A DNA stretch of 33,553 nt from Synergistota bacterium (GTDB lineage: Bacteria > Synergistota > Synergistia > Synergistales > Aminobacteriaceae). The notes beneath the pieces were generated by a model. That model saw nothing but the letters and a program-made list of their open reading frames with translations, made no database searches and was not told where the DNA came from. Position 1 is the stretch's first letter, and each line of letters opens with the position of its first letter. Positions 5,220-19,247 of the stretch are shown piece after piece. The stretch is taken from contig JAKJGK010000001.1 in NCBI GenBank assembly GCA_022704435.1, positions 1 to 33,553 of the forward strand, given 5' to 3'. The position numbers were made by a program, and so were the translations under genes.

Positions 5220-5248
5220 TTGACGTTTCAATGCTTACTGGCTATAAT
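5220..5248 (+). promoter_or_regulatory. Near-consensus sigma70-type promoter for the T-box-lysA transcript
   Basis: TTGACG at 5220-5225 is a -35 box with one mismatch to consensus. TATAAT at 5243-5248 is a perfect -10 box, and the spacer is exactly 17 bases. Transcription should begin near 5254-5256, directly ahead of the T-box leader. It starts 13 bases after the cheB stop, so lysA has its own promoter rather than depending on the chemosensory operon. Confidence 0.85.
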
Positions 5249-5254
5249 GCCGCC

Positions 5255-5520
5255 AAATGTGGTTGAGTAAACGCGATGAAGCGGACTGTCCTAGTAATAC
5301 GCTGCCGCCAGAGAAGGGGGTCCGAGGGCTGAGAGGCTCCCCCGGCAGTGACGAAGGGCGCAAAGACCGCGGAGCGGGGGCTGAAACGGCCTGCACGGCC
5401 GGCAGTACGCCCACGGGAGGCTCCCGTCACAGGGCTTGAGCGGGGCGCGGGGGCGCGCCCAAGCAGGGTGGTACCGCGAGACATATGGCTCGTCCCTTCA
5501 GTGGGGCGGGCCATTTTTTT
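5255..5520 (+). promoter_or_regulatory. T-box riboswitch (tRNA-sensing leader) upstream of lysA
   Basis: This untranslated leader fills the 347-base gap between cheB and lysA. The diagnostic T-box AGGGTGGTACCGCG is at 5465-5478. Its TGGT would pair with the uncharged ACCA end of a tRNA with discriminator A. Stem I features are visible: GATGAAG at 5275-5281 (K-turn side), AGTA at 5293-5296, AGAGAA at 5310-5315 (AG-bulge type) and the apical GGCTGAGA at 5328-5335. Stem arms include CTGCC/GGCAG (5302-5306 with 5344-5348) and GCGG/CCGC (5281-5284 with 5367-5370). CAAAGA at 5361-5366 lies opposite the lower 5' strand and contains lysine codons AAA or AAG, which fits lysA. The exact specifier is not certain. 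Uncharged tRNA would stabilise the antiterminator and allow lysA expression when lysine is short. Confidence 0.9.
5486..5520 (+). terminator. Regulated intrinsic terminator of the T-box leader
   Basis: An 11-base arm, TGGCTCGTCCC at 5486-5496, pairs with GGGGCGGGCCA at 5503-5513 using some G-U pairs. The loop has six bases and seven T follow at 5514-5520. It begins eight bases after the T-box motif, the standard position for the terminator that competes with the antiterminator. Confidence 0.9.
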
Positions 5521-5553
5521 ACAGACACAGCGCGAGGGAGAGAGGCGCAGGAT

Positions 5554-6861
5554 ATGGGTGACTGGTTGGCTGTGAACGAGAAAGGTCGTTTGGTCCTCGA
5601 GGGGTGGGACTCGGTCGAACTTGCGGGGCGCTTCGGCACGCCTCTTTATGTCCTCTCCGAGGGCGCGATCAGGCGCAGGTGCGGTGAGCTGAGGGAAACC
5701 TTCATCGACAGGTGGGAGAACGCCTCCGCGGTGTACGCGGGGAAGGCGTTTCTCACCCTGGCGATGTGCAGGATAGTTCAGTCCGAGGGGCTCGGGTTGG
5801 ACCTGGTCTCTGGCGGCGAGCTGTTCACCGCCTCAGCCGCGGGCTTTCCCCTGGACAGGGCCCTGCTGCACGGCAACGGAAAAACCGGCGAGGAGCTGGC
5901 CCTCGCGCTGGCCAGCGGAGTTGGCCGAATCGTGGTGGACAGCCTGTCCGAGCTGGAGACGCTGGAAGAAGTGGCATCCTCGTCGGGAAGGACGGCGTCC
6001 GTGCTGCTGAGGGTCTCCCCCGGGGTGGATCCGCATACCCACAGGTATATTGTCACCGGGCACACGGGGTCGAAGTTTGGCTTTCCGGTGGCGGGCGATT
6101 CCCTTAGGGAAGCCGTCCGCCGCGCGATGGGGTCGTCCCGCGTCCGGCTCAAGGGATTCCACTTTCACATAGGGTCGCAGATTTTCGAGAAGGACTCCCA
6201 CGTGATGTCCGTCGATATTCTGACGGGGGCCATGGCGGAGTTCAGGCGGGACTTGGGGCTGGTGACGGAGGAGCTGAACATGGGGGGCGGCTTCGGGGTC
6301 GACTTCACCCAGGAGGGGCGGACGCCGAGGATCGAGGAGTTCACGGACGCCATGATGGCGCGACTGTCGGACCGGTGCCTCGATCTCGGGATGGAGCGCC
6401 CTCGCGTGGTGATAGAGCCTGGGCGATGGATCGTCTCCGAGGCTGGCGTGACCCTCTACTCGGTGCAGACGGTCAAGAGGCTGGACGGTGGTCTGACCTA
6501 CGTTGCGGTGGACGGAGGCATGAGCGACAATCCCAGGCCGTCCCTCTACGGGGCCAAGTACCGCGCGGTGGCGGCCGGCAGTATGAAAGAGGAGGCTACG
6601 GAGGTCGTGACACTGGCGGGCAAGTGCTGCGAGTCGGGCGATATCCTGGTGGAGGGGATGAGGACCCCGCCGCTGTCGAGGGGAGACATCGTCGCAGTGC
6701 TCAACACGGGCGCCTACACCTTCTCCATGGCGAGCAACTACAACCGGCTGCCGCGACCGGCGGTGGTCCTGGCAAGCGAGGGCCGGGCCGACGTGATAGT
6801 GCCCCGCCAGAGCTACGAGGACCTGGTTCGCGGCGAGGTCATACCGGGACACCTGGAGTAG
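5554..6861 (+). CDS. lysA: Diaminopimelate decarboxylase (last step of lysine synthesis)
   Basis: This PLP enzyme converts meso-diaminopimelate to L-lysine and CO2 in the cytoplasm. The 435-residue protein has the fold-III (alanine-racemase-like barrel) arrangement. The PLP lysine is Lys64 in VYAGKAFLT, followed by FHFHIGSQI, the phosphate-binding GGGFG, EPGRWIV, and the C-terminal active-site segment GKCCESGD with GAYTFSMASNYN. The length is normal. The start chosen is ATG at 5554, behind GAGGGAGAGAGG. An in-frame ATG at 5485 lies inside the T-box terminator and can be excluded. Expression should rise when tRNA-Lys is uncharged, through the leader at 5255-5520. dapF, which makes the substrate, lies about 8 kb downstream in a separate unit. 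Confidence 0.96.
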   Translation: MGDWLAVNEKGRLVLEGWDSVELAGRFGTPLYVLSEGAIRRRCGELRETFIDRWENASAVYAGKAFLTLAMCRIVQSEGLGLDLVSGGELFTASAAGFPLDRALLHGNGKTGEELALALASGVGRIVVDSLSELETLEEVASSSGRTASVLLRVSPGVDPHTHRYIVTGHTGSKFGFPVAGDSLREAVRRAMGSSRVRLKGFHFHIGSQIFEKDSHVMSVDILTGAMAEFRRDLGLVTEELNMGGGFGVDFTQEGRTPRIEEFTDAMMARLSDRCLDLGMERPRVVIEPGRWIVSEAGVTLYSVQTVKRLDGGLTYVAVDGGMSDNPRPSLYGAKYRAVAAGSMKEEATEVVTLAGKCCESGDILVEGMRTPPLSRGDIVAVLNTGAYTFSMASNYNRLPRPAVVLASEGRADVIVPRQSYEDLVRGEVIPGHLE

Positions 6862-14857: not shown

Positions 14858-15685
14858 ATGATACCCTTCGTGAAGATGCAGGGCAACGGCAACGACTTCA
14901 TAGTCCTTGACAACAGGGACGGGCGGTTCGGGGAGGGCGAGCTCCCGGAGATGGCTCGACGCTTCTGCCCCAGACGATCCTCCCTCGGGGCGGACGGCAT
15001 CCTGGTGCTCGAGCGGGCGGATGGTGCGGACTACGCCATGAGGCTGTTCAACGCTGACGGCAGCGAGGGCGAGATGTGCGGCAACGGCGCCCGCTGCATC
15101 GCCAGGTACGCTCACGAGAAGGGCATAGCCGGTGCCTCGCATGCCTTTTCGACCCTGGCGGGCATCATGAGGGCCGAGGTCGAACCCCCCTTCGTCGACC
15201 TCGACATGGGCAGGATATCCCTCGACGGCTCGTGGTTCAACAGGGAGGTGACCGCCCTCGGCAGGACCTTCCCGGCCTCTTTCCTGGTGGTCGGAGTTCC
15301 CCACCTGGTGCTGTTCGAGGGCGCAGCGCCCCTGACGCGCTATGAGATGGTCGAGGCGGGGCGCGAGCTTAGGCACGACACCGCCCTCTTCCCCTGCGGG
15401 ACGAACGTGAACTTCGTCTCGGGGAGGCCGGGTGAACGAAGGATACGCTCTGTAACCTACGAGAGGGGTGTGGAGGACCTGACCGACTCCTGCGGCACCG
15501 GCTCCACCGCCTCCGCGATAGCCTGGGTCGTGAGAGGCGGCCAAGCTCCTGACCGGGAGTCCGTCGAGGTGGAAAACCCAGGGGGCCTCAACTGCGTGAC
15601 CCTGCGCTTCGATCTCCCTGACGGAGGCATATCGGCATCCCTGAAGGGCAGGACGGTCATGGTAGCGGAGGGAGTGCTGTTCTAG
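14858..15685 (+). CDS. dapF: Diaminopimelate epimerase
   Basis: The 275-residue cytoplasmic enzyme interconverts LL- and meso-diaminopimelate without a cofactor, feeding both peptidoglycan and lysine synthesis. It opens with FVKMQGNGNDFIVLDN. It has both active-site cysteines, Cys74 in EMCGNGARC and Cys212 in DSCGTGSTA, as well as GTNVNFV. The length is normal. ATG at 14858 follows AAGGAGGCGGG. It is divergent from metH across about 100 bases in which I see no riboswitch and no clear promoter. Together with lysA it shows that the organism uses the DAP pathway. The two genes are not adjacent and only lysA has a T-box, which makes sense because dapF is also needed for cell wall synthesis. Confidence 0.96.
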   Translation: MIPFVKMQGNGNDFIVLDNRDGRFGEGELPEMARRFCPRRSSLGADGILVLERADGADYAMRLFNADGSEGEMCGNGARCIARYAHEKGIAGASHAFSTLAGIMRAEVEPPFVDLDMGRISLDGSWFNREVTALGRTFPASFLVVGVPHLVLFEGAAPLTRYEMVEAGRELRHDTALFPCGTNVNFVSGRPGERRIRSVTYERGVEDLTDSCGTGSTASAIAWVVRGGQAPDRESVEVENPGGLNCVTLRFDLPDGGISASLKGRTVMVAEGVLF

Positions 15686-15836: not shown

Positions 15837-18800
15837 ATGAAGAAAGTGCTGATAGCGTTGGTCGCGCTCGTGGCGATCGCCGCGGGGGCCGCGTGGACCC
15901 TGAACTTCGCGGGCGACCTGGTGGTCAGGGAAGCGGGCTCGGCGGTCAAGGAGCTCATGGGCGCTGATCTCAGGGTTGCGGAGATCAGCGGGAACCCGAT
16001 AAGAGGCTTCTCCATGAGGGATGTGTCTCTTTCCAGGGATGGGGCGCAGCTCTTCAGCGCGCGGAATATCGACGTCTCCCTGAACCTGATGTCCCTGCTG
16101 TCGAAATCCCCTAAACTGAGCATGCTCACGGTAGGCGGAGTGGAGCTCGACGCGGACGAACTCGCCGCGCAGGTCGCCCAGCTCAAGTTCGAGGGAGGGG
16201 GAGGCGAGATGCCCATCGAGACCGTTCGTGTGGTCGACAGCACGATCAAATCGAAATGGGGCAGGGTGGGCATCAGCAGGACCGACCTGTCGGCCAGGGG
16301 GCCCGATATCGAGGCCGACATCGACCTTGCGGTCAACAGCGTGCCGCTTAAGGGATCCATCACCGCTCGAGTCGAGGGGAGCGACGCCGAGATTCGCTCC
16401 ATGTCCCTGAAGATCGGAGGGGGTGAGGTGAACGCTTCCGGCAGGTTGCTTCCATCGCTGGCGGTCTCCGGCTCCGTCAAGGACCTCGACCTGGCGCAGC
16501 TCGCGTCGTTCTGGCCCGCGCTGTCGCCCGAGGGATTCGACGGTGCAGTGTCGCTATCCTTCAGCGGAGAGGGGGAGTGGAATGCCCCGATCCTGAAGGG
16601 GGATCTGGATTACTCCGGCAGGTCGGTGCTGGGGTATCCGGTGGACAGCGTGAGCGCGAGGTGGTCGCTCGAAGCGGACAGGCTGTCGGTTGAGGGTCTG
16701 GACGCCCGGGTGCTGGGCATGCCTCTCGCCGGGGGAATGTCGCTCTCGTTCGGCGCGGGGAAGCCGCCGGTGGTAGACCTGGCGCTCTCCGGCTCCGGAA
16801 TAGACCTGTCCGAGCTCAAGAAGGTCTACCCCGACCTGGGGGAGGTCTCCGGCCAGGTCGACAAGTTCAGCGTCAAGCTGGCAGGCACGGCGGACACCCT
16901 GTCCGGAGTGGTGGAGTTCAGCGCCCCGAAGCTGGGAGTGATGGGCTACACGGTCACGGAGTCGCGAGCCCAGGTCAAACTGACGCCCGCCGCGGCCAGC
17001 CTGAGCGCGAAGTCCCAGTTCGAGGGCGCGGCCATCACGGCGCAGGGCACGATCGGCGACTACATGACCGCGCCGAAACTGGACCTTACTGCGAACATAC
17101 GGAATATTAACCTCGCAAAGGCCGCTGCGTCCTTTCCGCATCTCAAGGACCTCGCCCTGCAGGGGGGCGCGCATGCCGACGTGTCGGTCAAGGGGACTTC
17201 CGCGGCCCCCGACGTGTCGGTCAAGGCTTGGAGCGAGAAGATATCCGTCATGAAGGAGCTGCTCGAGTCTCCGTCCGCGACGATCTCGGTCAAGGGGGAT
17301 AGCGTCACAGTCTCCAAGGCCGAGGCGAAGTGGCGCGGGGCGGCGATAAGTTTGTCGGGCACCGTTGGCGGAGGGGATAAACTCAACATCACCGCTGTGA
17401 TGGACAACCTTCAACCGGCGGCCCTTGCGCCATTCTATCCCGATATCGCGCAGTACGGGATCAAAGGGGCCGTGACCGCTAAGGCGGTGGTAACCGGTAG
17501 CGCGAAGGCACCGCGAATAGACCTTGCTCTCTCCTCGGCGAACCTGGGCATCAAGGACGCGACGTTAAAGGGGCTCAAGGCCTCGACCTCTCTGGCGGGC
17601 GATCTTAAGGCCCTCGACAAGGCCGATCTCGACCTCGACGTATCCGCGGCCTCGGCCTCGGCCGCCGGACTGGGGTTCTCCGACATCTCCGTGAAGCTGA
17701 AAAAGGCCGGGAACAAGATCAACGTTCAGTCCGCCTCCGCACGGAGCGGGGCAGGCTCGCTCTCCGCATCAGGCTCGATCGCCCTCCCGGCCAAGGCGGG
17801 GGACAAGGGGGGGCTGGACCTCTCGGTCTCGATTTCCAAGGCGGACCTCGCCGCAGTCTCGACAGCCGGGGGCCTGGGAGTCCAGCTCGCCGGGGTGCTG
17901 GACGGCAGCGTCACGCTGAAGGGAGCGCTGGACTCGCCGTCGATAGCGGTGAAGGCGACCTCCCCCAAGGTGTCGGTCGCCGGCATGACCGCCACCGATC
18001 TGACCGCGTCCCTCTCCGGGAGCACGGACAGGATGGTCATTGACGAGCTTAGGGCGGCCTTCGGAGGCGGGTCGCTGGCTGCCAAGGGGAGCGTGGGACT
18101 CGGGGCCGCTCCGGACGCGACCCTCGACCTGTCCGGCAAGGACCTCGACCTGGCCGCGCTGGCGTCCGGTCTGCCCGACGCGAAGGAGCTGGGCATAGGA
18201 GGCCGGATCGACGTGACCTTCAACGGGAAGTTCGCAGGATCGACCGGCAAGGGGCAGGGCTCGATCTCGTCGCCCTCCTTCACCGTCATGGGGCTGAAGG
18301 GGGCGAACCTGTCCTACCCGGTGGCACTGGAGGGGAACACCCTGTCCTCCAAGGGCGCGTCCCTGTCCTTCTACGGAGGGACCGTCAAGGGCGGCGGATC
18401 TCTGGACATCAACACGATGAAGTTCTCCCACTCTCTAGAGATCGACGGCGTCGACGTGAACGGGGTCGCGCAGGACTTCACCGGAGGCATGGGAGGCAAG
18501 ATCGGCGGCCTGGCCAAGGGATCCGCGACGATTTCGGGCGGCATCTCCCCGAAGCTCTCCTACTCCGGGAAGGGTTCCCTGACCATCGGGGAGGGATCGA
18601 TAACCGGGTTCGCGGGCGTGCAGGTCCTCACCGCCATCTACAAGTCGGGTGTGCGCTACAGCAACGTGACGGTCCCGTTCCGACTCGAGACCGGGAAGTT
18701 GATACTGGAGAAGGGGACGAGGGCGAACGCGCCTCAGAACGACCCTCTGTACAGGTATCTGACCGCCGAGGGGCCGATAGGACCGAACAAAACAATGGCC

Positions 18801-19247
18801 CTGCAGTGCGCGGGCAACGTAAACCTGCAGGTGTTGAACGCCCTTACCGGCGGTGCGATCGGCGGGCTTACCGCCGCGTCGCTTCAGGACGCGCTCAAGG
18901 GAGTGCTGGGAGGGCTGCAGGGGGGGATGGAGAAGGCCGACTTCAGGGACATATCCTTCACCCTGGGAGGGACCACGGAGAAGCCGGGGTTCTCCAATCT
19001 GAAGATAGCGCAGGCGCCGGGCGGAAACATGCCCCTGCAGCCGGCGCCCGTCGAGCAGCCTGCCGCCCCGGTGGAGGAGCCAAAGAAACTTGAGCAGGTC
19101 CTGCTTGAGCAGATCGTCAAGCCTGTCCCCAAGCCCGACCAGCCGCCTGCACCGGAACAGCCCGAATCGCCGGCCCCCGCGCCCGAGCCGGAGAAGAACC
19201 CTGAGGAGATTATCAAAAAAAAGATCCTGGATTCGATCTTCAAATGA
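15837..19247 (+). CDS. Large AsmA-like envelope protein
   Basis: This 1136-residue protein looks like an AsmA/TamB-type factor anchored in the inner membrane and spanning the periplasm. An N-terminal membrane segment (about 3-24) is followed by AVKELMGADLRVAEISGNPIRGFSMRDVSLS, then roughly 900 residues of repeated short beta-strand units rich in Gly, Ser, Ala, Lys and Asp. An AsmA-like C-terminal region (about 910-1060) includes GEGSITGFAGVQVLTAIYKSG and DFRDISFTLGGT. It ends in a Pro/Glu-rich tail (about 1065-1125) and a short Lys/Ile-rich helix. Family members are thought to move phospholipid or affect outer-membrane assembly; the function here is not proven. ATG at 15837 has AAGGAGG upstream. 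Its presence supports a diderm envelope. Confidence 0.8.
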   Translation: MKKVLIALVALVAIAAGAAWTLNFAGDLVVREAGSAVKELMGADLRVAEISGNPIRGFSMRDVSLSRDGAQLFSARNIDVSLNLMSLLSKSPKLSMLTVGGVELDADELAAQVAQLKFEGGGGEMPIETVRVVDSTIKSKWGRVGISRTDLSARGPDIEADIDLAVNSVPLKGSITARVEGSDAEIRSMSLKIGGGEVNASGRLLPSLAVSGSVKDLDLAQLASFWPALSPEGFDGAVSLSFSGEGEWNAPILKGDLDYSGRSVLGYPVDSVSARWSLEADRLSVEGLDARVLGMPLAGGMSLSFGAGKPPVVDLALSGSGIDLSELKKVYPDLGEVSGQVDKFSVKLAGTADTLSGVVEFSAPKLGVMGYTVTESRAQVKLTPAAASLSAKSQFEGAAITAQGTIGDYMTAPKLDLTANIRNINLAKAAASFPHLKDLALQGGAHADVSVKGTSAAPDVSVKAWSEKISVMKELLESPSATISVKGDSVTVSKAEAKWRGAAISLSGTVGGGDKLNITAVMDNLQPAALAPFYPDIAQYGIKGAVTAKAVVTGSAKAPRIDLALSSANLGIKDATLKGLKASTSLAGDLKALDKADLDLDVSAASASAAGLGFSDISVKLKKAGNKINVQSASARSGAGSLSASGSIALPAKAGDKGGLDLSVSISKADLAAVSTAGGLGVQLAGVLDGSVTLKGALDSPSIAVKATSPKVSVAGMTATDLTASLSGSTDRMVIDELRAAFGGGSLAAKGSVGLGAAPDATLDLSGKDLDLAALASGLPDAKELGIGGRIDVTFNGKFAGSTGKGQGSISSPSFTVMGLKGANLSYPVALEGNTLSSKGASLSFYGGTVKGGGSLDINTMKFSHSLEIDGVDVNGVAQDFTGGMGGKIGGLAKGSATISGGISPKLSYSGKGSLTIGEGSITGFAGVQVLTAIYKSGVRYSNVTVPFRLETGKLILEKGTRANAPQNDPLYRYLTAEGPIGPNKTMALQCAGNVNLQVLNALTGGAIGGLTAASLQDALKGVLGGLQGGMEKADFRDISFTLGGTTEKPGFSNLKIAQAPGGNMPLQPAPVEQPAAPVEEPKKLEQVLLEQIVKPVPKPDQPPAPEQPESPAPAPEPEKNPEEIIKKKILDSIFK
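17176..17226 (+). repeat. 18-base direct repeat with 33-base period inside the AsmA-like gene
   Basis: CCGACGTGTCGGTCAAGG occurs at 17176-17193 and again at 17209-17226. The 33-base (11-codon) spacing keeps the frame, and each copy encodes a DVSVK strand. It probably records a recent internal duplication of one beta-strand unit. Confidence 0.8.

Follow-up and report, generated by a model that had tools for sequence, protein, structure and literature searches.

In many bacteria, the L-box controls lysine genes via premature termination. This lysine riboswitch (RF00168) senses lysine itself, unlike a T-box placed on lysA, such as the one that we describe here. The closest described systems are the class I T-boxes of RF00230, such as that of Bacillus subtilis tyrS. 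Most T-boxes, though not all, have an S-turn of opposing 5′-AGUA and 5′-GAA in the specifier loop (PMC4695836), and this stem I S-turn, which lies above the specifier, turns the helix aside from modified base 37 of the tRNA and avoids a clash with tRNA modifications (PMC7583486). Surveys of T-box users from 2008 (PMC2494555) and 2013 (PMC3766115) do not list Synergistota, and a 2025 survey found riboswitch enrichment in Synergistota generally (PMC12452182).

The lysA leader

We analyzed a stretch of 33,553 nucleotides (the window) from a Synergistota genome (2.44 Mb, 236 contigs). An initial annotation had claimed a near-perfect promoter and a T-box leader with stem I landmarks, an exact T-box and a terminator, with lysA as the downstream gene. 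All of these are in the sequence, with coordinates that agree within a few bases, and positions 5267–5520 are, judging from sequence, very probably a class I (stem II-containing) T-box leader of lysA, specific for lysine and acting by transcription termination. The elements are as follows:

5220–5248, plus strand: sigma-70-type promoter, read directly (–35 TTGACG at 5220–5225, 17-nt spacer, –10 TATAAT at 5243–5248)
5273–5375, plus strand: stem I, from the GA/K-turn strand GCGATGA through GGAGC (R1 covariance match and RF00230 alignment)
5378–5412, plus strand: stem II with the S-turn GAAA 5383–5386 / AGUA 5404–5407 (sequence reading, inside the RF00230 match)
5413–5432, plus strand: stem IIA/B (pseudoknot-forming) element ACGGGAGGCUCCCGUCACAG, aligned to the RF00230 consensus ACGG...CCGUUA
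5438–5462, plus strand: stem III and flanking purines, GAGCG...AA (RF00230 alignment)
5465–5480, plus strand: T-box AGGGTGGTACCGCGAG, with the bulge UGGU at 5469–5472 complementary to the ACCA end of tRNA-Lys
5465–5497, plus strand: antiterminator, AGGG/CCCU and CGAG/CTCG (–8.6 kcal/mol)
5485–5520, plus strand: intrinsic terminator, a 12-bp hairpin and T run (–23.2 kcal/mol)
5554–6861, plus strand: lysA, diaminopimelate decarboxylase, the regulated gene (TIGR01048 equivalog, 446 bits against a cut-off of 298; PF02784 and PF00278)
14858–15685 of the window: dapF, diaminopimelate epimerase (TIGR00652), without a T-box match

A search with the Rfam T-box covariance model, which the initial annotation had proposed as a check, matched RF00230 over its full length (cmscan of the window: 5267–5500, plus strand, model positions 1–219, 53.5 bits, E = 4.4e-11; E = 6.3e-11 when the whole genome was searched). 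The score lies under the gathering score of 93 bits, which is a curators' threshold and not a biological feature, so a default Rfam search of the window is silent and reports no T-box; default searching thus overlooks this leader. A score under the gathering threshold would also suit a degenerate or non-functional T-box remnant, but conservation across three families, with compensatory changes, extends to the promoter, stem I, T-box, antiterminator and terminator, and we regard a remnant as scarcely credible. A promoter of the same type is kept before nearly all homologous lysA leaders, 20–31 nt upstream of stem I where recognised. The same antiterminator fold was found in 18/18 homologous leaders tested, and likewise the terminator hairpin (18/18); in the lysA leader the two are mutually exclusive, and the terminator is the stronger fold. 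Folding energy was tried as a line of evidence and set aside as uninformative for this GC-rich leader: as expected of GC-rich RNA, the minimum energy was no better than that of dinucleotide shuffles for the whole leader (z = –0.22) or for stem I (z = 0.03).

The features by which a T-box is recognised are present, namely a UGGN bulge matching the NCCA of the tRNA, stem I landmarks with a matching specifier, and exclusive antiterminator and terminator, as is the class I arrangement of a long stem I and stem II with S-turn and stem IIA/B before stem III. The part of stem IIA/B inside the RF00230 alignment is ACGGGAGGCUCCCGU at 5413–5427, the T-box core is AGGGTGGTACCGCG at 5465–5478, and the purines round stem III fit the RRRNG–stem III–AA motif (PMC7778990). 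The lysA leader has in common with RF00230 and the class I T-boxes of the Bacillus subtilis tyrS type a stem I with GA motif, specifier and AG bulge, the stem II S-turn, stem IIA/B, stem III, the UGGU bulge and a competing terminator. It differs from them in lacking two RF00230-type features, the 93-bit gathering score and the AGUA/GAA S-turn of the specifier loop, and in having a helix directly above the codon. This kind of T-box is already known, and the lysA leader is a variant of it.

The specifier loop of stem I

Stem I of the lysA leader scored 97.2 bits against the R1 covariance model, in which the window sequence is itself included. For the specifier we used an alignment (A2) that combines 19 lysA leaders with the leader of dapA from the source genome. 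The parts of stem I are:

5281–5284 with 5367–5370, plus strand: lower helix, GCGG with CCGC (97.5% of cells paired, compensatory changes in 2/4 pairs)
5285–5287, plus strand: 5′ strand of the specifier loop, ACU, without AGUA
5288–5291 with 5356–5359, plus strand: helix directly above the specifier loop, GUCC with GGGC (both-sided changes in 3/4 pairs)
5293–5296, plus strand: AGUA, in a mid-stem internal loop opposite UGACGAA 5349–5355; the loop E of the initial annotation
5309–5314, plus strand: AG bulge CAGAGA, at the distal end of stem I, where the tRNA elbow binds, nearly invariant in alignment A2 (RF00230 alignment)
5362–5364, plus strand: specifier AAA (Lys), followed by the purine G5365; AAR in every member of alignment A2

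The lysA leader has the layout GCGG-ACU-[GUCC]...[GGGC]-GC-AAA-GA-CCGC, where brackets mark the covarying helix. The argG leader, from this genome as well, has a canonical S-turn and reads GGGG-AGG-AGUA-[CUCC]...[GGAG]-GAA-U-AGA-G-CCCC. RNAalifold recovered the GUCC/GGGC helix unaided, and optional extra pairs (U5287–G5360 and U5292–A5355) flank it. The consensus structure had 89.3% of cells paired in the alignment, compared with 67.7% in shuffles, and 0/500 shuffles reached 89.3%. Across 71 distinct lysine stems, which were collected largely with a model built on lysA leaders and whose ascertainment is not independent, each 5′ strand paired with its own 3′ strand over a mean run of 5.27 pairs versus 3.83 when strands were swapped, and 0/20,000 permutations came up to 5.27. 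AGUA stood beside the lower helix in 0/71 of these Synergistota stems, and GARN preceded the codon in 0/71. These stems stand before lysA, dapA, asd or lysW-lysX, and the form is the same whichever of these genes follows. The 5′ strand of the Synergistota lysine specifier loop is only 2–3 nt long, and the covarying helix sits 1–2 nt above the AAR codon, with a spacer that is mostly CC in the wider lysine stem set.

GUCC/GGGC had initially been described as an additional helix that separates an AGTA/GAA loop-E candidate from the lysine codon in a stem I longer than usual. The helix is real and covaries, but it corresponds to the helix that normally stands above the specifier loop, and is not an addition. 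A genuine S-turn formed by AGUA 5293–5296 and GAA 5353–5355, with an extra helix inserted before the codon, is improbable: the two motifs do face each other in an internal loop of the window sequence, but AGUA occurs there in 4/28 lysA leaders, three of them near-identical, and the 3′ GAA is lost in some leaders. Stem I is also barely longer than usual, with 37.6 nt versus 35.0 nt between its start and the AG bulge; its 5′ side has just 2–3 nt more, so little has been inserted. A near-constant distance of this sort would be expected if the spacing of the codon and elbow contacts must be kept. On the comparative sequence evidence, GUCC/GGGC is an ordinary helix above the specifier loop, and the AGUA/GAA S-turn is missing, not displaced. 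The earlier suggestion of a variant stem I was borne out in this form, with the S-turn absent from the specifier loop of 71/71 distinct Synergistota lysine stems. Two observations count against our best explanation: the minimum-energy fold predicted for stem I contains an additional CU/AG pair, and this would occlude the base 3′ of the codon; and in the leaders of one genus (g3 of family f1; L046–L048) the helix above the specifier is just 2–3 bp.

Lysine specificity and the regulated genes

The initial annotation had also claimed a lysine specifier and proposed an alignment of homologues to fix it. Every member of the alignment has AA[A/G] and a purine on the 3′ strand of the specifier loop, and no non-lysine codon is placed there. 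The codon is AAA in 48 and AAG in 23 of the 71 distinct lysine stems, and the next base is A or G in 71/71. Reading the loop in the canonical register, as GAA-G-GGC-G, would instead make GGC (Gly) the specifier. The window does have GAA followed by GGGC, and the related leaders L036 and L038 read GAAAGGC, but the register is unconserved: other families have UAAGGC-AU, UUGGG-AU or GCGG-C before AAR, and it is AAR with its purine that stays constant. The GGGC is moreover paired, by covariation, and lysA and the genes of the other such leaders belong to the lysine pathway, leaving a glycine specifier with next to no credence.

Genes for tRNA-Lys(UUU) and tRNA-Lys(CUU) are present in the genome; each ends in ACCA, which complements the T-box bulge UGGU. 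We infer the steps of a lysine-specific response from established T-box biochemistry. Under lysine shortage, the anticodon of uncharged tRNA-Lys would bind the specifier, and the tRNA elbow would stack on the distal end of stem I. Its ACCA end would then pair with the UGGU bulge and stabilise the antiterminator, and lysA would be transcribed. Charged tRNA-Lys would not form the ACCA/UGGU pairing, and the stronger terminator would form. The elements themselves, the covariation of stem I, the Lys codon, the matching tRNA-Lys and the exclusive antiterminator and terminator are established from the sequence.

Leaders with a Lys specifier, found by the stem I model search, precede lysA, dapA, asd or lysW-lysX, all of them lysine-pathway genes (downstream genes were read from reading frames, with NCBIfam confirmation on representatives). 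Use of DAP, as initially described, agrees with the presence of dapA, dapB and dapF in the genome. The description of lysA as a lone gene does not hold, as the window also holds dapF, and dapA-dapB, at another locus of the genome, is preceded by a separate lysine T-box (L004). The diderm nature of the host, also put forward initially, follows from its kinship with Synergistota, and the LysA relatives of highest identity are from Synergistaceae genomes. The window further encodes, at 15837–19247, a 1136-aa protein with AsmA/DUF748/YhdP-type matches, which fits a diderm envelope.

Lysine T-boxes stand before lysW-lysX at L225, L226, L230, L237, L239, L243–L246, L250, L251, L253, L256, L265 and L267. 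The LysW encoded behind lysine T-boxes ends in EDWGE, and the pathway is the alpha-aminoadipate/LysW one; no LysA match at E 1e-60 was found in the genomes whose lysine T-box sits on lysW-lysX. Before asd, one locus (L228, G121 contig C10, 70836 and 71115) has a pair of stem I matches separated by about 280 nt, which look like complete lysine T-boxes in tandem. The lysA leaders of the Dethiosulfovibrio-like family f6 have a second T-box/terminator within about 93–116 nt, without a second stem I, in 13/13 of those having a T-box (L050, L062–L064, L147, L148, L151, L164, L170, L171 and L174–L176). Repeated T-boxes are reportedly found in the B. subtilis thrZ leader.

Distribution in Synergistota and beyond

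RF00230 matches occur in 135/188 Synergistota genomes and 57/63 genera of the phylum, scoring above 93 bits in just 49/188 genomes, and T-box motifs lie upstream of lysA in 28/70 upstream regions examined. The initial view that a T-box here would be less common and probably lineage-specific was therefore not upheld: we reject a lineage- or lysA-specific oddity, T-boxes being common across Synergistota. Its view that the L-box is not in use agrees with our searches, in which RF00168 had no match in the source genome; matches over the cut-off occur in 7/188 Synergistota genomes.

Non-lysine Synergistota T-boxes kept AGUA in 55/61 sampled. A canonical Lys T-box pattern, strict on spacing, gave 8 matches in the 188 Synergistota genomes, none of them T-box-like by the matched sequence alone, and 4 in the reversed control. 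Since 71/71 Synergistota lysine stems are without the S-turn and the canonical Lys pattern gave no T-box-like match, loss of the S-turn appears, within our sampling, to be fixed in the lysine specificity of the phylum, with sporadic cases elsewhere.

When the lysine stem I model was run against 300 Bacillota genomes, the highest score was 56.8 bits, compared with 65–100 for the leading Synergistota lysine leaders. Of the best 30 Bacillota matches, nearly all have AGUA/GAA, and the few without it have other codons. Bacillota also yielded three lysine T-boxes of canonical form, GAA-N-AAA-G (L335, L337 and L348); they have the Lys specifier AAA in stem I, as in the lysA leader, and keep AGUA/GAA by the codon, whereas the Synergistota lysine T-boxes are without it. 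S-turn loss as a general trait of lysine specifiers is rejected on this ground. No lysA T-box was seen by motif near the fetched Bacillota and Spirochaetota lysA loci.

Like the lysA leader, several T-boxes with other specifiers have no AGUA/GAA in the specifier loop. In Synergistota these include the thrC leaders L255 and L257 (family f4), which also have a helix flush above the specifier, as in the lysA leader, and the Leu-like L009, L349, L356, L361 and L379 (family f8); in Bacillota they are L326, L331 and L332. Further Synergistota T-boxes without AGUA at the specifier are L385 and, on argG, L272 and L274. Several independent losses of the S-turn among Synergistota T-boxes seem likely, and we reject a loss unique to Synergistota or to lysine. 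The non-lysine cases are scattered, whereas the lysine form is fixed in one specificity phylum-wide. Because other S-turn-less T-boxes exist, the lysine form counts as a variant of this lineage rather than as a new class.

We cautiously favour the view that the Synergistota lysine T-boxes are one old lineage in which a plain covarying helix replaced the S-turn flanking the specifier, with a decoding site that serves both the DAP and the LysW/alpha-aminoadipate pathways and whose geometry, unlike that of solved T-boxes, would have to accommodate the presumably bulky modified base 37 of tRNA-Lys. These T-boxes suggest that codon reading by stem I tolerates two geometries, and their occurrence phylum-wide offers a natural test of what the S-turn motif is needed for. 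They also document a diderm phylum in which lysine synthesis is commonly under T-box control, over both the DAP and LysW pathways. We found no description of an S-turn-less lysine T-box in the literature examined; the comparative work of Vitreschak 2008 and Gutierrez-Preciado 2009 lay outside its scope, and an earlier description is possible.

The source genome has a further T-box (L002, G000 contig C72:6174–6399, minus strand) before a threonyl-tRNA-synthetase-like reading frame, beside which lie pnp-like and dut-like reading frames named from their translations only.
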